64,000 nucleotides of DNA. Source: Streptosporangium becharense (GTDB lineage: Bacteria > Actinomycetota > Actinomycetes > Streptosporangiales > Streptosporangiaceae). Below are positions 18,488 through 28,489 of the stretch, one piece after another. Numbering within the stretch: position 1 is the first letter of the stretch; every line of letters starts with the position of its first letter. The notes under the pieces are model-generated. The model saw only the letters and a program-made list of their open reading frames with translations. It ran no database searches and had not been told where the DNA came from. The position numbers and the translations under genes are program-made. The DNA lies in contig NZ_JACHMP010000001.1 of NCBI RefSeq assembly GCF_014204985.1, positions 3,534,001 to 3,598,000 on the forward strand. Reading direction: 5' to 3'.

Positions 18488-21400
18488 ATGACCACGGTCA
18501 ACACCGTGCCCGACGTCGAGGAGCGACGTTACAGCGAGTCGGACCTGCGCCCGATCCTGCAGACGCTCATCACCTGGCGCGACGGAGACTTCCGCCGCCG
18601 GGTGCCGCATGCTCCGCCAGGGATCCTAAGCGAGATCCGGCTGCTGCTCAACGAGGTCGCCGACCGGCGCGAGCACCTGGCCAACGAGCTGCACCGGGTG
18701 CGGCGAGAGGTGGTCAAGGAGGGCCGTTTCAGCGAGCGTCTCACCCCCGGCCCGGGGGTCGGGTCGTGGGCCGAGAGCGTCGACTCCGTCAACGCGTTGA
18801 TCAACGCGCTCGTCGGCCCGGTGAGCGGGGCCGCGGACGTGATCGACGCGGTGGCCAAGGGCGATCTGTCCCAGCGGATCGATCTCGACCGCAGCGCCCG
18901 GGGTGAGGTGCGCCGCCTCGGCAAGGCGATCAACGGCATGGTCGACCAGTTGTCGCTGTTCACCTCCGAGGTGACCCGGGTGGCCCGCGAGGTCGGCACC
19001 GAGGGCCGGCTGGGCGGCCGGGCGAACGTGCGGGGCATGTCGGGAAGCTGGCGTGACCTCACCGAGGCCGTGAACACCATGTCCAGCCGCGTCTCGGCGC
19101 AGGTCCGCGACATCGCGGCGGTGACCACCGCGGTCGCGCGGGGCGACCTGAGCCGCAAGGTCACCGTCGACGCGGTCGGCGAGATGTTCGAGCTGAAGAA
19201 CACCGTCAACACGATGGTCGACCAGCTGCTGGCGTTCGCCGAGGAGGTGACCCGGGTGGCCCGCGAGGTCGGCACCGAGGGCCAGCTCGGCGGACAGGCG
19301 CAGGTGCGGGGCGTCTCCGGCGTCTGGAAGGACCTCACCGACAACGTCAACGTCATGGCGGGCAACCTGACCACCCAGGTCCGCGCCATCGCGGCGGTGT
19401 CGACGGCGGTGGCCCAGGGCGACCTCTCCAAGAAGATCACCGCCGACGCGCGGGGAGAGATCCTCCAGCTCAAGGACACCCTCAACACCATGGTCGACCA
19501 GCTGTCGATGTTCGCCGACGAGGTCACCCGCGTCGCCCGCGAAGTCGGCACCGAGGGCCAGCTCGGCGGACAGGCCCGCGTCCGCGGCGTCTCCGGCGTC
19601 TGGAAGGACCTCACCGACAACGTCAACTCCATGGCCAACAACCTGACCTACCAGGTACGCAACATCGCCGAGGTCACCACCGCCGTCGCCAACGGCGACC
19701 TGACCCGCAAGATCGACGTCGACGCGCAGGGCGAGATCCTCGCGCTCAAGACCACCATCAACACCATGGTCGACCAGCTGTCGTCCTTCGCCTCCGAGGT
19801 GAGCCGGGTGGCCCGCGAGGTCGGCTCGGAGGGCCAGCTCGGCGGACAGGCGCAGGTGCCCGGGGTCTCGGGCACCTGGAAGGACCTCACCGACAACGTC
19901 AACGTCATGGCCAACAACCTGACCACCCAGGTGCGCCAGATCGCGGCGGTGTCGACGGCGGTGGCCCAGGGCAACCTGTCCAAGAAGATCACCGCCGACG
20001 CGCAGGGGGAGATCCTCCAGCTCAAGGACACCCTCAACACCATGGTCGACCAGCTGTCGATGTTCGCCGACGAGGTCACCCGCGTCGCCCGCGAAGTCGG
20101 CACCGAGGGCCAGCTCGGCGGACAGGCCCGCGTCCGCGGCGTCTCCGGCGTCTGGAAGGACCTCACCGACAACGTCAACTCCATGGCCAACAACCTGACC
20201 TACCAGGTACGCAACATCGCCGAGGTCACCACCGCCGTCGCCAAGGGCAACCTGACCCGCAAGATCGACGTGAACGCGCAGGGCGAGATCCTCGCGCTCA
20301 AGACCACCATCAACACCATGGTCGACCAGCTGTCGTCCTTCGCCTCCGAGGTGAGCCGGGTGGCCCGCGAGGTCGGCTCGGAGGGCAAACTGGGCGGCCA
20401 GGCCCGCGTCGAGGGTGCCGAGGGCATCTGGAAGGGCCTCACCGAGAACGTCAACGAGCTGGCCGCCCGCCTGACCACCCAGGTCCGCGCCATCGCCGAG
20501 GTGACGACCGCGGTCGCCACCGGTGACCTGACCCGCTCCATCACCGTCGACGCCGGGGGTGAGATCGGCGAGCTGAAGGACAACATCAACATGATGGTGG
20601 CGGTGCTCCGCGACACCACCACCGCCAACCAGGAGCAAGACTGGCTGAAGTCCAACCTCGCCAGGATCTCCCGGCTCATGCAGGGCCACCGTGACCTGAT
20701 GGAGGTCGCCAGGCTCATCATGAGCGAGCTGACGCCGCTGGTGTCGGCCCGCTACGGCGCCTTCTACCTCGCCGAGCCCACGGGCGGGCGAGAGCTGATC
20801 CTCATCGCCGGGTACGGCGTGCGGCCCGGCTCCGGCCCCCGCCAGCGGTTCGCGGCCGGAGAGGGCGTGGTGGGCCAGGCCGCCCTGGAGGGCAAGAAGA
20901 TCATCCTTGGCAACGTGCCCTCCCGCTACCTCACCGTCGACACCGGCCTCAGCAGCTCCGCGCCCGCGCAGATCGTCGTGCTGCCGATCCTGTTCGAGAA
21001 CCAGGTGCTGGGCGTGCTGGAGCTGGCCTCGTTCAACGAGTTCAGCGAGATCCACCACGACCTGCTCAACCAGCTCGTCGAGACCATCGGCGTCACGATG
21101 AACACGATCATCGCCAACTCCCGCACCCAGGACCTGCTGACGGAGTCGCAGCGCCTGGCCACGGAGCTCCAGGAACGCTCCGACGAGCTCCAGCGGCAGC
21201 AGGAGGAACTGCGCCGCTCCAACGCCGAACTGGAGGACAAGGCCGCCCTGCTGGCCAAGCAGAACCGGGCCATCGAGATCCAGAACTTCCAGATCGAGCA
21301 GGCCCGCCGCACCCTGGAGGAGCGCGCCGAGCAGCTGGCCGTCTCCTCGCGGTACAAGTCCGAGTTCCTGGCCAACATGTCCCACGAGCTGCGCACCCCG

Positions 21401-22663
21401 CTGAACAGCCTCCTGGTGCTGGCCAAGCTGCTCACCGAGAACTCCGAGGGCAACCTCACCCCCCAGCAGGTGGAGTTCGCCAGAACCATCCACGGCGCCG
21501 GATCGGCCCTGCTACAGCTGATCAACGACATCCTGGACCTGTCGAAGGTCGAGGCCGGGCGGATGGACATCCACCCGCAGCAGATCTCGCTGCCCAAGCT
21601 CGTCGACTACTTCGAGGCCACCTTCGCCCCGCTGGCCCAGGACAAGGGCCTGTCGTTCACCGTGGAGGTCGACCCGTCGGTGCCGCACGAGATCCGCACC
21701 GACGAGCAGCGTCTCCAGCAGGTGGTACGCAACCTGCTCTCCAACGCGATCAAGTTCACGCCCAAGGGTCAGGTGCGGCTGCGGGTGGTCCGGGCCGCGC
21801 GCGCCGTGACGTTCGTCGACGACACCCTGCGGGGCGCCGACGGCATCCTCGCGTTCGAGGTGATCGACACCGGGATAGGGATCGCCGCGGACAAGCTGGA
21901 GGTCATCTTCGAGGCGTTCCGCCAGGCCGACGGAACCACCAGCCGCAAGTACGGCGGGACGGGCCTCGGCCTGTCGATCTGCCGCGAGATCGCCCGCCTG
22001 CTGGGCGGCGAGATCCACGTGGTGAGCAAGGTGGGCGAGGGCAGCACCTTCACCCTCTACCTGCCGCCGTCCTACGGCGGTCCGCTGGCCTCCCGCGACG
22101 GCGGGGCGAGCACGCCCAACGCCGCCCCACCGGAGACGACGCTCGCCGGAGCGCCGGCGGGCACCGACGACCTGCCGGAGACCCCGATCTCCGACGACCT
22201 GCCCGTTCCCCACTTCGCGCAGAGCGAGAGCCCGGCGTGGCAGGGCGACGACCCGCTGACCGACGCCAAGATCCTGATCGTGGACGACGACATCCGCAAC
22301 GTGTTCGCGCTGACCAGCGTTCTGGAACGGTACGGCTCCACCGTGGTCTACGCCGAGAACGGCCGCGAGGGCATCGAGCAGCTCGAACGCAACGAGGACG
22401 TCGCCCTCGTCCTGATGGACATCATGATGCCGGAGATGGACGGCTGGGCCACCACCTCCGCGATCCGCCGGATGCCGCAGTTCGCGGATCTGCCGATCAT
22501 CGCGCTGACCGCTAAGGTCATGCGGGGCGACCGCGAGAAAAGCATCGCATCCGGCGCCTCCGACTATGTCCCCAAGCCCGTCGACGTGGACCGTCTTCTG
22601 GAACGGTTGCGCGGCTGGCTCTCCCGGGGCAAGCCGTCCGTTGACTCCAACGAAGGCGTGTGA
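18488..22663 (+). CDS. Hybrid histidine kinase with seven HAMP repeats (OsaA-like)
   Basis: The protein has 1391 residues and no membrane segment, so it is cytoplasmic. After an N-terminal helical part come seven HAMP units at exact 92-residue spacing, each ending in a (N/I)xMVxxL motif (Met at 151, 243, 335, 427, 519, 611, 703). A GAF domain follows at about 740-880, a coiled coil at 890-960, then HisKA (phospho-acceptor H966 in MSHELRTPL), HATPase ([21 protein letters not shown]) and a receiver domain with D1311. This matches fungal Nik1/group III osmosensor kinases and Streptomyces OsaA, which acts in osmoadaptation. AAGGAGG precedes the ATG. The response regulator follows 3 nt later. Confidence 0.92.
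19457..19690 (+). repeat. Copy 1 of a perfect 234-bp repeat inside the HAMP kinase
   Basis: These 234 bases recur without a mismatch at 20009-20242, exactly 552 bp (two HAMP units, 184 codons) downstream. The identity reaches third codon positions, which shows recent duplication or gene conversion. Confidence 0.95.
20009..20242 (+). repeat. Copy 2 of the perfect 234-bp repeat inside the HAMP kinase
   Basis: This is identical to 19457-19690. The next HAMP unit (around 20291-20390) is likewise almost identical to the one at 19739-19838, so the duplicated module is a pair of HAMP domains. Confidence 0.95.
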
Positions 22664-23392: not shown

Positions 23393-24967
23393 TCAGCGGC
23401 GGGCTCGTTCCAGGGCGTCCCAGAAGCCGCGACGCAGGGCGTGGCGGACCTCGTCGTGCAGGAGGAAGTCGATCGGCAGGGACGACCCCTGCAGCAGGCG
23501 GGCCTCCAGGTCGGAGGGCATACGGGGCTTGCGGGCGAGCACCGCCTCCAGCCACAGGGCGGGGGCGTCCTTGGCGACGGACTCGCCGAAGTCGTGGCCT
23601 TCCTTGTGGGCGGCCTGCACCGCGTCGGAGAGGGTGGTCGCGGCGCCGTCGGCGGAACCGTCCCGCACCGGCACGGGGGCCGGCTGGGGGCCGGTGTAGG
23701 GGGCGCCCGTCCGTGACGACTGGTAGCTCGGCATACCGCCGGTGTCGCCCAGCGAGTACTGCGGCGGGGAGGGCAGCGGGCCGGTCAGGCCCCCGCCGGC
23801 GGTGACACGCGGGGGCGTGGCGGCGGACGGAGGCGTGGCGGCGGGCGGAGGCGTGGCGGCGGGCGGAGGCGTCTGAGGGGACGGGGCCGTCGGAGTGATC
23901 GGCGGCTCCTGGGTGTACCCCGAATAGGAGGAGTGTGCCCCGGGCTGGGCGTGGGCGGCGCGGGAAGGCCGGACCGCGGAGATCGGACCGGTGGTCGGCG
24001 AGCCGTCGGCCACACCGGCCACCGGACCGGTCGACGGACCGGCCACCGGACCGGTCGACGTACCGACGGCGAAACCGCCGGCCGCACCGGCCACCGGACC
24101 GGTCGCCCCCCTGTCCGCTTGCCCGTTCGCCTCGTCGGCCGCCGGACGGCCGGATACACCCCCCGCCGTACTGCCGGATACACCGGCCGCCGGGCTACCG
24201 GCCGCACCCACAGGCCCATCGGCGGCGAAACCACCGGCCGCACCGGTCGCCGCACCAGCTACCGGACCGTTCGCCCCACCGGTGGTGAGGCCACCGGCCG
24301 CCGACGCGGAGAGGTCCGCACCTCGGGAGGAGGCATCCGCGTCCAGGGGAGAGGCGCCCGCGCCGTAGGAGGAGGTGGTCCGGCCGTTGGCGGACGGCCG
24401 GCGCCCCGTGGAACCCACGGCGGCCGGTTCACCGCCGACCGGGCTGACGTGGGGCCGCAGCCGGTCGGCGCCGATCTCGATCAGGTCGTCGCACTCCTGG
24501 CGGAGCATGCGGGAGACGGCCCAGCTGCCGTCCGCGGCGATGTGCACCACGGTGACCCGGATACCGAGATCCTGGGCGTCGCAGACGACCTGTGTCAGAT
24601 CCTCGTCGCCGCTGACCACCACCGCGTCGCAGATCGCGCCGTTGCGGGCCAGCGTCATCAGATCGCGGTGCACCTGGGCGTCGACGCCCTCACGACGGCC
24701 GGGACGGATGCGCGACAGCCGGAGTTTCAGGCCGGGGATGTCGGCCAGGGTGTCGTGCTCGGGGGTGCGGCGGCCCTCCACGGTCGCCTCATACCAGTAG
24801 CAGCGCAGCAGCGGCAGGCCGGTGCGCTCCGTGGCGAGCCTGCCGAGCAACTGGAGCAGACCGGGATAGTCCCAGGAGACAGCCTCACGGTGGCGGGTGC
24901 CGTGCGCGGCCATCGCACCGTCGGTCAACAGGTAGCCAGCGTCCACGAACAGCGCGCAGCGATCCAC
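23393..24967 (-). CDS. NYN-domain (PIN-like) nuclease with long repeat-rich linker
   Basis: The protein has 524 residues. Residues 3-165 form a NYN domain with the acidic catalytic set D9 (FVDAGYL), D96 (GVDAQ) and D121/D123 (SGDEDL), as in the PIN-like RNA nucleases. Residues about 190-420 are a low-complexity linker of Gly/Ala/Pro/Thr repeats (TGPVAG-type units and PPPAAT units). The last 80 residues are a folded helical domain that I do not recognise (EGHDFGESVAKDAPALWLEAVL...HDEVRHALRRGFWDALE). It probably acts on RNA in the cytoplasm. The GTG at 24967 begins the domain homology; a 50-codon upstream extension is unlikely. Confidence 0.82.
   Translation of the reverse strand: MDRCALFVDAGYLLTDGAMAAHGTRHREAVSWDYPGLLQLLGRLATERTGLPLLRCYWYEATVEGRRTPEHDTLADIPGLKLRLSRIRPGRREGVDAQVHRDLMTLARNGAICDAVVVSGDEDLTQVVCDAQDLGIRVTVVHIAADGSWAVSRMLRQECDDLIEIGADRLRPHVSPVGGEPAAVGSTGRRPSANGRTTSSYGAGASPLDADASSRGADLSASAAGGLTTGGANGPVAGAATGAAGGFAADGPVGAAGSPAAGVSGSTAGGVSGRPAADEANGQADRGATGPVAGAAGGFAVGTSTGPVAGPSTGPVAGVADGSPTTGPISAVRPSRAAHAQPGAHSSYSGYTQEPPITPTAPSPQTPPPAATPPPAATPPSAATPPRVTAGGGLTGPLPSPPQYSLGDTGGMPSYQSSRTGAPYTGPQPAPVPVRDGSADGAATTLSDAVQAAHKEGHDFGESVAKDAPALWLEAVLARKPRMPSDLEARLLQGSSLPIDFLLHDEVRHALRRGFWDALERARR
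23815..24300. repeat. Low-complexity tandem repeats in the NYN gene linker
   Basis: Short GC-rich units recur here: GGCGTGGCGGCGGGCGGA near 23820-23875 and ACCGGACCGGTCGACG-like units near 24010-24120. They encode the PPPAAT and TGPVAG repeats. Length variation between strains is likely. Confidence 0.75.
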
Positions 24968-25267
24968 ACGACACCGCCCTTCCTTCGTGGCCCGACCCTG
25001 CGGCTCAGACAGACGTGAAAGAGCCCCCGAAGCCCCGGGAAACAGCCCTTCCTCAGGGTAGTCAAGCAGCTGATCGTTCGAGAGTGAATCCCGACGATTC
25101 CGCCTTCGCCTGACCATAAGCTGGGCCGCTCCGGCAGACCGTACCAGTTCGTCCGTTTATGAAACCGTACCGGGAAAGGCTCCGCACTCTGCCCGTCACC
25201 ATCGGCCGCCCGCCCGGAACCTGAGCCCCCGCCCGGAACCCGAGCCCCCGGTCGCCGTCGCGGGACC
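24968..25267. other. 300-bp gap upstream of the NYN gene
   Basis: No gene is supported here. It contains an imperfect 19-bp tandem duplication at 25211-25248 (CGCCCGGAACC(T/C)GAGCCCC) just past the stop of the sigma-fusion gene. The promoter of the minus-strand NYN gene must lie in it, but I cannot pick it out. Confidence 0.5.
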
Positions 25268-27802
25268 TCAGAAGGGGGCGGGGACGCTCGCCACGGCGGC
25301 GCCGAAGAGCAGGACGTCCCGGCGGGTGCTGAGCCGCAGCACCGGGTCACGGCCGAGGGGGGTGCGGAAGCGGTCGACGTCCGTGCCGAAGGTCACGCCC
25401 GTGCCCACCGAGCCGGGGACGGAGCCGTCGAAGGGGTTGCGCGGGTCGCGGTCGCCGCCGGTGGGCCGCAGCGTCCGGCCGCCCAGCGCCACGCGGTCTC
25501 CCCGCACGTCCGCGTCCCCCTCCCAGGTCACCAGGGTGAGGTTCGCGGGCGCGGCGGCGGAGGCCAGTCCGCCGAGCCGGACGTTCAACACGCGGCGTTC
25601 CCGGTCGAGCACCGCCGCGGCGTCGACGACCACGACCCGGCTGTACGGCCGGAGCTGATCGGCGGTGATGACCACCAGGCTCCACCCGGCGTGCCGCGAG
25701 ACGCCGGGCCGCAACGACGGATCGGCCGCCCAGTACGTCCCGCCGGCTCTGCCGAGCAGTCGTGTCACGTCGGCGAAAGCCTGATAGCCCCAGCCCGCGG
25801 GCAGTCGCCGCTCCACCACCCGGGACGCCTTCACCCGGCGGTACCGGGCGTCACCCGGCACCCTGAACCTGATCGTCCGGTCGCCGGGCCGCGCGCTCGC
25901 CGACCAGTAGAGCCCGGCCCACACCACCTCTCCCGACGCCGGGACACGCAACCGGGCGGCGCTCGAACTGCTCGTCGAGGGATCCCCGTCACGGTCGACG
26001 GGACGCATCTCCCAGTGGTCGTTGTCGCGCACTCCGCCCCTGCGCGCACGGGCCCGTTCGCATCCGGCGTGGTCGGCGGGGCAGCTCAGCAGGGTGTTGC
26101 CGATCGCCGAGACGGCCACCCTGCCGTCGGTGGCGAACCTCGCGGGGGTGCCGTGGGTCCGCACCCCGCCATGCGACCTGGCCGTCACCCGGGCCCCCGT
26201 CGTGCGGACCCTGACCGAGGGAGCCGCCCCCTCGGCCGCTGCGGCCGACACCAGGACCCGCAGGAAGACAGCGGTGGCGCGGCCGGGCTCCAGCGGGCCG
26301 CGCACACACCGCGCGCCCCGGCTCCGCACCCGGCAGGACCAGCCGTCGACCGTGCCGACCGGTGTGACGCCGCCGGGTGCGGCCCGCCCACGTCCGGCTC
26401 CCACCAGCGGCGCCACACCCCGGGGCAGGGTGACGTCGGCGACGACCTCCCCGCTCTCCTTCCGGCCCGTGTTGCGCATGCGTACGGCCACGATGCCGGT
26501 CTCCGACCTGACGAGCGCACCCAGCACGTCGATCCTGGCGGCCAACCGGGGCACGGCCTCCGCCTCTTCCGGGAGGATCCGGCCGGGATCCCCCTGCGAG
26601 GCGCCGCCGTGGCCCGCGGCCGGGGAACCGGCGGCTCCGCCCGGTCCCCCGGGGTCCGTTCCCGGGGAGCCGGGACCCGCGCCGGAGAGGCCCGGACCCG
26701 TGCGCGGGGAGCCGGGGTCGGCGCGGTGAGCGGCGGGCCCCTCCCCGGAAGGGGTGACGACGCCGGAGGGCTCCGGGGCGGGGGTGACGACGTCGGGGAG
26801 CCCCGACGCGGGAGCACCGACGCCGGAGGGCTCCGGCGTCGGAGCGACGACGATCGGCTCGGGGGCGACGAGCGGCGGGGGCGTCGGCTCCTCCGCCGAC
26901 ACCAGCACGAGCGCCGCCGCCACCATGACGGCGGTGACCGCCGCGCCGGTCATGACGGCCCGCCGCACGGGCCGGGACGCCCGCCGCCACCGGATGGCCG
27001 GGCCCCTCCCGGGCACGGCGCCCGCGCCGCGGGCCGCCGCCAGATACCCGGCGAACGCGGGGCCCGCGACGAGCGGGCCGATGACGGCGCGCAGGGTCTT
27101 CGTGACGCCCGCCAGTTCGGCGAGCACCCGGCGGCAGCCGGAGCAGGTGTCCAGGTGCTCGTCCACCGCCCTGCTCAGGTCGTGGCCGAGGTCACCCCGG
27201 ACGTACGGGCCCAGCCCGGCCAGCGGCGCGCGGCACTCCGGCCGCGGTCTCCCGGCCAGGTGGACGCGGAGGCACGCCTGGCGCATGCCCTCGCGCGCCC
27301 GGTGCGCGAGCACCGCCGCGTCGTCCGCCGTCAGGCCCAGCAGCGGTGCGACGTCGGCCGGTCCGGCCCCCTCGACGTCGACGTGCCACAGGACGAGCCG
27401 CCACCTCTCGGGCAGGGACAGGAAGGCCTTGGCGACGGGAGAGCGTTCCAGGCCCGCCAGCGCCGGGTCGACGAGGGGCACGCCGGGGTCGAAGAGCTCG
27501 ACCGCCCCGGCCTGCGGACGACCGGACAGGCCTGAGCGGTCGCGGACCGCACGGCGGAGCGCGGTGAGCAGGTACGGCCGGAACGCCTGCTCGGGGCCGC
27601 AACCCCGGCCGATGACATGGTGGACCCTGGCGAAGGTCTCCTCGACGATCCGTGCCGCCTCGGTCTCGTCCGCGACGAGCCGGCGGACCAGGGCCCACGC
27701 CGCAGAGACGTGCCGCCGTTGGAGTCGCCGGTAGGCGGCGGCGGCGCCGTTCCTGGTCGCGGCCAGCAGCTCGGCGTCCCCCCGAGAGGCTCTCACACTC
27801 AT
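25268..27802 (-). CDS. Sigma factor fused to zinc-finger anti-sigma, membrane helix and extracellular domain
   Basis: This is one 844-residue protein. Residues 10-90 resemble sigma-70 region 2 and 120-180 region 4 (FLSLPERWRLVLWHVDVEGAG...). Residues 205-225 hold a HxxxCxxC zinc finger (H216, C220, C223) as in ECF anti-sigma factors. A membrane helix lies at about 283-303. A Pro/Thr/Gly-rich linker runs to about 430. The outer part has a beta-sandwich-like domain and a C-terminal region resembling DUF3344 (GNTLLSCPADHAGC...VVWAGLYWSASA...). Sigma/anti-sigma fusions with extracellular domains are known in some actinobacterial ECF groups and imply release by proteolysis. GTGAGG precedes the ATG by 5 nt. 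It is divergent from pyrE. Confidence 0.82.
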   Translation of the reverse strand: MSVRASRGDAELLAATRNGAAAAYRRLQRRHVSAAWALVRRLVADETEAARIVEETFARVHHVIGRGCGPEQAFRPYLLTALRRAVRDRSGLSGRPQAGAVELFDPGVPLVDPALAGLERSPVAKAFLSLPERWRLVLWHVDVEGAGPADVAPLLGLTADDAAVLAHRAREGMRQACLRVHLAGRPRPECRAPLAGLGPYVRGDLGHDLSRAVDEHLDTCSGCRRVLAELAGVTKTLRAVIGPLVAGPAFAGYLAAARGAGAVPGRGPAIRWRRASRPVRRAVMTGAAVTAVMVAAALVLVSAEEPTPPPLVAPEPIVVAPTPEPSGVGAPASGLPDVVTPAPEPSGVVTPSGEGPAAHRADPGSPRTGPGLSGAGPGSPGTDPGGPGGAAGSPAAGHGGASQGDPGRILPEEAEAVPRLAARIDVLGALVRSETGIVAVRMRNTGRKESGEVVADVTLPRGVAPLVGAGRGRAAPGGVTPVGTVDGWSCRVRSRGARCVRGPLEPGRATAVFLRVLVSAAAAEGAAPSVRVRTTGARVTARSHGGVRTHGTPARFATDGRVAVSAIGNTLLSCPADHAGCERARARRGGVRDNDHWEMRPVDRDGDPSTSSSSAARLRVPASGEVVWAGLYWSASARPGDRTIRFRVPGDARYRRVKASRVVERRLPAGWGYQAFADVTRLLGRAGGTYWAADPSLRPGVSRHAGWSLVVITADQLRPYSRVVVVDAAAVLDRERRVLNVRLGGLASAAAPANLTLVTWEGDADVRGDRVALGGRTLRPTGGDRDPRNPFDGSVPGSVGTGVTFGTDVDRFRTPLGRDPVLRLSTRRDVLLFGAAVASVPAPF

Positions 27803-27939
27803 TGTGACCTCACCATTACCCTGGGTTTCCTGCCCGATGATTGCGCAGTCGGCGCCGCCGCCGAACCCGTATCGCGTTTTTGCCACCGGACGCCCGCCGC
27901 CGTGTACGGGCCCGTTCCGGGCACCGTGCCGGCCACCCC

Positions 27940-27945
27940 TAACCT
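27940..27945 (+). promoter_or_regulatory. -10 element of pyrE
   Basis: TAACCT ends 7 nt before the pyrE ATG and there is no Shine-Dalgarno, so a leaderless transcript is expected. Confidence 0.45.
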
Positions 27946-27952
27946 TGTTGCC

Positions 27953-28489
27953 ATGAGCGATCGCGAGAACCTGCTGGCCGAGATCAAGGGCAAAGGCGTC
28001 GTGCACGGCAAGGTCGTGCTCTCCTCCGGCATGGAGGCCGACTTCTACGTGGACATGCGCCGGGTGACCCTCGACGGGCGGGCCGCGCCGCTGGTGGGCC
28101 GGGTCATGCTGGATCTGACCGAGGATCTGGACTACGAGGCGGTCGGCGGCCTGACGCTGGGCGCCGACCCGGTGGCGACCGCCATGCTGCACGCGGCGGC
28201 GGCACGGGGCAGGAGCCTCGACGCGTTCGTGGTGCGCAAGGCGCAGAAGGCGCACGGCATGCAGCGCCGGATCGAGGGGCCGGACGTCGCGGGGCGGCGG
28301 GTCCTCGCGGTGGAGGACACCTCCACCACCGGTGGTTCCCCGCTGACCGCGGTGGAGGCGTTGCGCGAGGCGGGCGCCGAGGTGGTGGCGGTGGCCACGA
28401 TCGTCGACCGGGGCGCCGCGGCGGCGATCGCCGCCGCGGGCCTGCCGTACCGGAGCGCCTACAGCCTGGCCGACCTCGGCCTGGCCTGA
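27953..28489 (+). CDS. pyrE: Orotate phosphoribosyltransferase
   Basis: This 178-residue enzyme makes orotidine monophosphate from orotate and PRPP, the fifth step of pyrimidine synthesis. The PRPP-binding signature VLAVEDTSTTGGSP is at 117-130, and the mobile-loop Lys/His stretch (RKAQKAHGM) is at about 95-103. The length and start (LLAEIKGKGVVHGKVVLSSG) match the actinobacterial PyrE type. It stands alone, away from other pyr genes, as in many actinobacteria. Confidence 0.93.
   Translation: MSDRENLLAEIKGKGVVHGKVVLSSGMEADFYVDMRRVTLDGRAAPLVGRVMLDLTEDLDYEAVGGLTLGADPVATAMLHAAAARGRSLDAFVVRKAQKAHGMQRRIEGPDVAGRRVLAVEDTSTTGGSPLTAVEALREAGAEVVAVATIVDRGAAAAIAAAGLPYRSAYSLADLGLA

Follow-up and report, generated by a model that had tools for sequence, protein, structure and literature searches.

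The locus analysed here raises the question whether one actinobacterial protein can join a sigma factor, an anti-sigma zinc finger, a membrane helix and an outer domain, as a first-pass annotation of the window (the whole stretch of DNA analysed, 64,000 nucleotides) had claimed, and, if so, what the outer part may contribute. The frame in question runs from ATG to TGA on the minus strand (27802-25268) and is open across its 844 codons. Its parts are found in the order claimed, namely, sigma region 2, sigma region 4, zinc finger, helix, linker, Ig-like domain and C-terminal head (Table 1), and GC3 lies between 0.90 and 0.96 in each of five gene segments, so that codon bias is indeed uniform. 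A relative of the window protein was located at 36 loci in a scan of genome contigs. At 32 of these (L001-L032) a single frame encodes the complete fusion; in L033 the match is confined to sigma and finger, in L034 and L035 to the finger, and comparison of ORFs yielded nothing for L036.

The annotation had also considered that a frameshift might have merged two separate genes. Such a joining, by frameshift or by assembly error, could be argued from four loci whose frames are split in the linker or Ig region (L061, L087, L091 and L094), and from the similar frame break reported for S. clavuligerus (PMC5826349). However, the frame in the window is unbroken and its GC3 uniform, and 32 independent records hold the fusion in one frame; we therefore reject the merger, to which we give practically no chance. 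The window gene is thus confirmed as one intact fusion, from a soil-type actinobacterium.

Table 1. Features of the fusion locus, with window coordinates, strand and the evidence for each.
Feature	Position	Strand	Evidence
NYN-domain gene, downstream neighbour	23393..25117	(-)	PF01936, E 2.2e-7
Fusion gene, 844 codons	25268..27802	(-)	Open frame; uniform GC3; same fusion at 32 loci
Head domain, residues 551-844	25271..26152	(-)	DUF3344-related by transitive homology; C574 and C581
Ig-like / DUF11-type beta-sandwich, predicted, residues 412-550	26153..26569	(-)	AlphaFold; VIA-align; invariant C490 and C499
Pro/Gly-rich linker, residues 303-412	26567..26896	(-)	Composition; TM-plus-linker dN/dS
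Single membrane helix, predicted, residues 282-302	26897..26959	(-)	Hydropathy peak; positive residues on N-terminal side
ZAS-type zinc anti-sigma finger, residues ~188-232	27107..27241	(-)	zf-HC2 above cut-off; C190, H216, C220, C223
Sigma region 4, predicted, residues ~115-185	27248..27460	(-)	VIA-align to SigL region 4 bound to RslA; weak Pfam r4_2
Sigma region 2, predicted, residues ~9-90	27533..27778	(-)	AlphaFold and VIA-align; Pfam r2 below cut-off
pyrE-like phosphoribosyltransferase gene, divergent upstream neighbour	27953..28489	(+)	PF00156

Evidence that the N-terminal part is a sigma factor with its finger comes from profiles, alignments and models. First, zf-HC2 scores 26.0 bits in the window protein against a Pfam cut-off of 22.2 (residues 197-224); Sigma70_r2 (21.7 against 24 bits), r4_2 (12.7 against 25.7 bits) and the TIGR02937 sigma70-ECF model (E 1.2e-7) also match, each below its cut-off, and SigL in the PDB matches by sequence at E 8.6e-5. 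Second, among 19 aligned proteins including that of the window, r2 and zf-HC2 are found in 19/19 and r4_2 in 16/19 at E<=0.01, and the finger residues C190, H216, C220 and C223 are invariant in the 18/18 and 12/12 alignment rows. Third, in the AlphaFold model of residues 1-320 (pLDDT 71 overall and ~80-95 in the folded parts, pTM 0.54), VIA-align superposed region 2 on that of sigmaE (5or5; Z 13.2, rmsd 3.3, 93 aligned) and region 4 on that of SigL (3hug; Z 8.1, rmsd 3.6, 70 aligned), which disposes of the possibility, raised by the annotation, that residues 1-185 have no sigma2/sigma4 fold. Foldseek with the whole 1-320 model returned E-values of 1e-3 or worse.

The window protein departs from the family at 11 of 74 near-invariant positions of the sigma part, among them D51R, in a stretch that we take to be sigma region 2.2. 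At these positions five congeners show 10-15 departures, six other relatives 2-5, and L099/L100 14-16. Since the sigma part departs from family norms, sigma activity of the window copy is not certain, and the departures in this genus may reflect altered specificity or loss of constraint. They are also the starting point for a different explanation, namely, that in the window's genus the sigma part is decaying or has been repurposed, the gene being mainly a membrane-anchored surface protein. Along with the Pfam r2 and r4 scores below cut-off, an end branch of 0.4 in the tree, a changed linker between regions 2 and 4 in congeners L065, L067 and L103, and the failure to find either core or outer part in congeners G079, G195 and G210 would fit such decay. 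Yet sigma2 and sigma4 are predicted at high confidence, the finger is intact, the frame is open, and two members of the same genus (L135 and L136) went the opposite way, losing the head and keeping the core, and we consider this explanation improbable.

The sigma part is predicted to be tethered to the membrane, as had been claimed, by the single hydrophobic stretch of the protein (KD 2.40, start 283), which follows the positively charged RWRRASRPVRR on its N-terminal side. The linker has 26 P and 23 G among 110 residues. In the loci L061, L087, L091 and L094, the sigma part and the outer part are read in different frames, with the break in the Pro-rich linker or the Ig region or close to them, which may represent either sequencing error or true splitting.

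Beyond the linker, the AlphaFold model of residues 411-844 (pLDDT 79, pTM 0.84) is almost all beta. The VIA-align rows obtained with it span only model residues 2-140, that is, the first part, which aligned with a CLIPPER domain (9ifr; Z 13.2, rmsd 2.3, 120 aligned) and with the receptor-binding domain of alpha-1-macroglobulin (1edy; Z 12.3). As modelled, this first part resembles Ig-like stalk domains, so that the beta-sandwich of the annotation stands as an Ig-like domain, the head lying outside these rows. Foldseek comparison of the whole outer part with the PDB and viral models gave TM-scores of ~0.1-0.25, query-normalised, and among solved structures there was no sequence match to the outer part at E<=1; a new fold is not claimed for the head. 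Two pairs of cysteines are invariant, namely, C490 and C499 in the Ig-like domain and, among 24 alignment rows, C574 and C581 in the head.

The identity of the head was approached through its relatives. In the window protein, no Pfam or NCBIfam model names the Ig-like part or the head. DUF3344 (PF11824) gave no match in the outer parts of this protein and 23 relatives, even at E<=1, and nothing in 41 genomes including the window's; direct assignment to DUF3344 was thus rejected. The link comes only by way of relatives of the head, which score 29.6 (L117), 26.1 (L112) and 19.0 bits (L122) against the DUF3344 cut-off of 27.2, L117 being recovered by the head profile at E 7e-35; L113, L114, L119 and L121 have no DUF3344 match at E<=0.1. 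The DUF3344-like domain of the annotation therefore holds by transitive homology and not by direct match. Searched across the phylum, the head profile found 10 of 246 genomes, including the window's. The head occurs in long proteins that carry repeats of DUF11 or DUF7507 (L112, L113, L114, L119 and L121), in another long protein (L120), in short proteins of 393-424 aa (L115-L118, from four genomes that are Streptomyces-like by their NPCBM sigma fusions) and in fragments (L123, L125 and L126). By eye, the DUF11-repeat head proteins carry N-terminal hydrophobic leaders.

DUF3344 has also been noted in published work. Its cluster 23 in a survey of fibrillar adhesins is listed as of 'ambiguous function' (Table 8 in PMC9210967), and DUF3344 proteins of an archaeal plasmid have been called likely cell-surface proteins (PMC9674854). 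The window protein shares with the DUF3344/DUF11-repeat surface proteins a homologous head and an adjoining DUF11-type domain; those proteins, however, have the head before several DUF11 repeats, whereas here the head is C-terminal, with one Ig domain and a membrane-bound sigma part. On sequence grounds, the outer domain is related to surface adhesins, and the head appears as a module common to secreted DUF11-repeat surface proteins. Classification as a fibrillar adhesin was rejected, given the one Ig domain, the C-terminal head and a helix that follows a cytosolic sigma part; the relation is one of domain sharing only.

Two further observations concern proteins from other genera. A single chain from another class of the same phylum (L122) combines this head with region 4, an Ig-like part and a match to zf-HC2, region 2 not being seen in the part of the sequence fetched; the pairing of sigma factor and head may be old, or this may be a second, independent fusion. 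Relatives in other genera (L096, L097, L098 and L087) have an insertion of ~120-160 residues compared with the window protein; it lies between the Ig part and the body of the head, past the first of the two head cysteines.

How the outer part has evolved can be judged from selection, exchange and loss. Across seven pairs of relatives, the core had a dN/dS of 0.03-0.41, the Ig part 0.18-0.57, the head 0.17-0.37 and TM plus linker 0.32-1.27. The outer domains are thus maintained, with purifying selection on the sigma, Ig and head parts, and constraint on the linker is loose. A core-profile search matched 12 of 246 phylum genomes at E<=1e-30. Ten of these core ORFs were scanned: the C-terminal domain is NPCBM in three, ricin lectin in two and bacterial Ig in one, and in four no domain was recognised there. 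That the same core bears NPCBM (L071, L073 and L074), ricin lectin (L083 and L084) or bacterial Ig (L070) in other actinobacteria indicates a switch that stays constant while its outer modules can be exchanged.

Within the order, the core also occurs without the outer part. Among its 249 genomes, the core (E<=1e-30) is present in 190 and the outer part (E<=1e-5) in 154, with both in 148, the core only in 42 and the outer part only in 6. We fetched 12 loci, from 11 of the 42 core-only genomes and from G180: the head is absent at E<=1e-3 from all 11 core-only genomes, and G180 (L146) has a head remnant whose middle is missing. Relatives at the same locus with sigma, finger, helix and only a short tail include L135 and L136, from the window's genus, L137, L138, L140, L143 and others. 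On a tree of 84 core sequences, the headless label, which was also given to L146 despite its remnant, needs six changes, and well-supported branches force six; the headless rows were chosen for their short frames, and the frequency of headless forms in this tree is therefore meaningless. Headless L144 lies outside the main clade, inside which repeated loss of the head would be the simplest reading, gains being also possible. A core without head at the same locus, with at least six gains or losses, implies that the head is dispensable, and these headless relatives would speak against the outer part as a sensor essential in all members.

The fused switch itself is known. Fusions of this general kind had been said to exist in a few ECF groups, and the literature agrees: ECF48, 52 and 53 are described as fused membrane sigma factors for which release by proteolysis is expected (PMC8999054; PMC5826349). 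The type member of ECF52, SCO4117 of Streptomyces coelicolor, has sigma part, zf-HC2, helix, proline-rich linker and a carbohydrate-binding end; the latter is proposed to trigger release, and autoregulation and a developmental effect of the truncated sigma part are reported (PMC5826349). In ECF48 and ECF53, a C-terminal zinc-finger anti-sigma part is accompanied by one or two membrane helices, with proteolytic activation proposed, and some ECF52/53 members have carbohydrate-binding or glycosyl hydrolase outer domains (PMC8999054; PMC10766802). The window protein is like ECF48/ECF53 in its C-terminal zinc-finger fusion and membrane helix, an outer part of its type not being mentioned in the descriptions of these groups given there (PMC8999054; PMC10766802). 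IutY of Pseudomonas putida (ECF243) likewise unites a sigma factor and a membrane anti-sigma part, and proteolytic release has been shown for it (PMC8999054); unlike the window protein, it belongs to Gram-negative iron cell-surface signalling and has an unrelated outer part.

With the membrane helix and proline-rich extension of the ECF52 type, the window protein is closest in layout to SCO4117 as described, each combining sigma part, zf-HC2, helix, proline-rich linker and outer domain in one actinobacterial protein; they differ in that SCO4117 ends in a smart00776 module and the window protein in an Ig/DUF11-like stalk and a DUF3344-related head. We take smart00776 to be the NPCBM domain. Core identity to NPCBM loci (L071-L074, L076, L078 and L079) is 33-37% by BLAST, and in the midpoint-rooted tree NPCBM rows and head rows fall on opposite sides of a 97/96 branch. 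No NPCBM match was found in the window protein or in 24 outer domains with the library that finds this domain in L071, L073 and L074, and we therefore do not file the window protein as ECF52. A literature search of titles and abstracts, in which subscription papers were thinly covered, gave no description of a sigma factor with this outer part. As far as we found, then, what is new is the DUF11/Ig stalk and DUF3344-related head on a known sigma-finger-helix switch. The fused sigma factors of ECF52 type, with their carbohydrate-binding outer domains, thereby gain a form with a surface-protein head without known ligand, and the DUF3344-related head gains a functional context beyond secreted repeat proteins.

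Sequence and model establish the parts, their order and conservation, purifying selection, and the replacement of the outer part as a module, as well as its loss. As to the working of the protein, analogy makes it reasonably probable that it is a cis-inhibited, tethered ECF sigma factor of the ECF52 kind, freed by proteolysis, with the outer part as input module. The sigma regions would lie on the inner side of the membrane, where the neighbouring finger would keep them inactive in cis, as in ZAS/sigma complexes, and the single helix and Pro-rich linker would display the DUF11/Ig stalk and DUF3344-related head on the cell exterior. An event at the outer part, be it binding, contact or damage, could then lay a wall-side stretch open to a first protease, after which, on the precedent of RIP systems, IutY and SCO4117, an M50 site-2 protease would cut the helix, and trimming of the finger would leave the sigma part free for RNA polymerase. 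Most likely, the head serves as an input module, shared with secreted surface proteins, that is not obligatory for the switch.

The same tethered sigma factor could instead take its input inside the cell or in the membrane, through the redox or zinc state of the finger, through Clp degradation or through phosphorylation as in SCO4117, which is phosphorylated on Ser15/Thr231 (PMC5826349); the outer part would then be an accessory wall-anchoring or adhesive module. The core-only genomes of the order and the headless loci fetched from them favour this alternative, but purifying selection on the head where present, together with other outer domains elsewhere, suggests a role tied to the switch, and we regard it as rather unlikely. 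A more specific form of the tethered, proteolytically released switch can be proposed only tentatively: a contact-sensing sigma factor, in which the tip of a DUF11-repeat protein on a tethered sigma part turns attachment into transcription. If so, attachment to a neighbouring hypha, wall glycan, spore coat or substrate would be the cue, and lineages would swap or drop tips (NPCBM, ricin lectin, bacterial Ig or the DUF3344-type head) on a constant core. The order offers natural variants at one syntenic locus, with head, without head and with a remnant, and the input and the need for the outer domain are therefore testable by comparing these forms.

Release and regulation were also considered at the level of the genome. 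M50 protease genes are found at two places in the window's genome and in 14 of 14 control genomes; given that they are near-universal, their presence is weak evidence for proteolytic release. An autoregulated ECF promoter motif, suggested by the annotation as worth seeking, was not found: the SCO4117 motif occurs at chance (177 observed against 173.7 expected), and CGGTTTAGYCATG, which aligns just upstream of the fusion genes of relatives, occurs once each in five of eight genomes and not in the other three, including that of the window. Occurring once or never per genome, it looks like a gene-specific promoter and not a regulon motif. At the Nonomuraea loci it belongs to a conserved stretch before the fusion gene, CGGTTTAGYCATG ... 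GGAATGCGGAATGA, which is degraded in the window. In window 24900-28100, no sigma-70-type promoter or terminator was found, and Rfam gave no match in window 24500-28400 at E<=1, nor at gathering scores in L001, L003, L010 and L028.

The surroundings of the gene are conserved. The NYN neighbour is present at 32/32 fusion loci and at 10 of 12 headless or head-remnant loci; pyrE is present at 31 of the 32 fusion loci, in 30 on the upstream side, and in the window 150 bases separate the fusion gene from its divergent pyrE-like neighbour. About 100 bases before the NYN start (window 24954-25062, minus strand) are strongly conserved across relatives and have hairpin potential; two-sided change was seen in one of 17 predicted pairs, and for this reason RNA structure is not claimed, this stretch being possibly an uncurated leader element or simply a conserved promoter or leader. 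Further along the window (18488-22663, plus strand), a gene encodes a 1391-residue protein that, by eye, has many near-identical HAMP-like repeats and then a histidine kinase and receiver region; a short response regulator follows it, and this arrangement is syntenic in many Nonomuraea loci.
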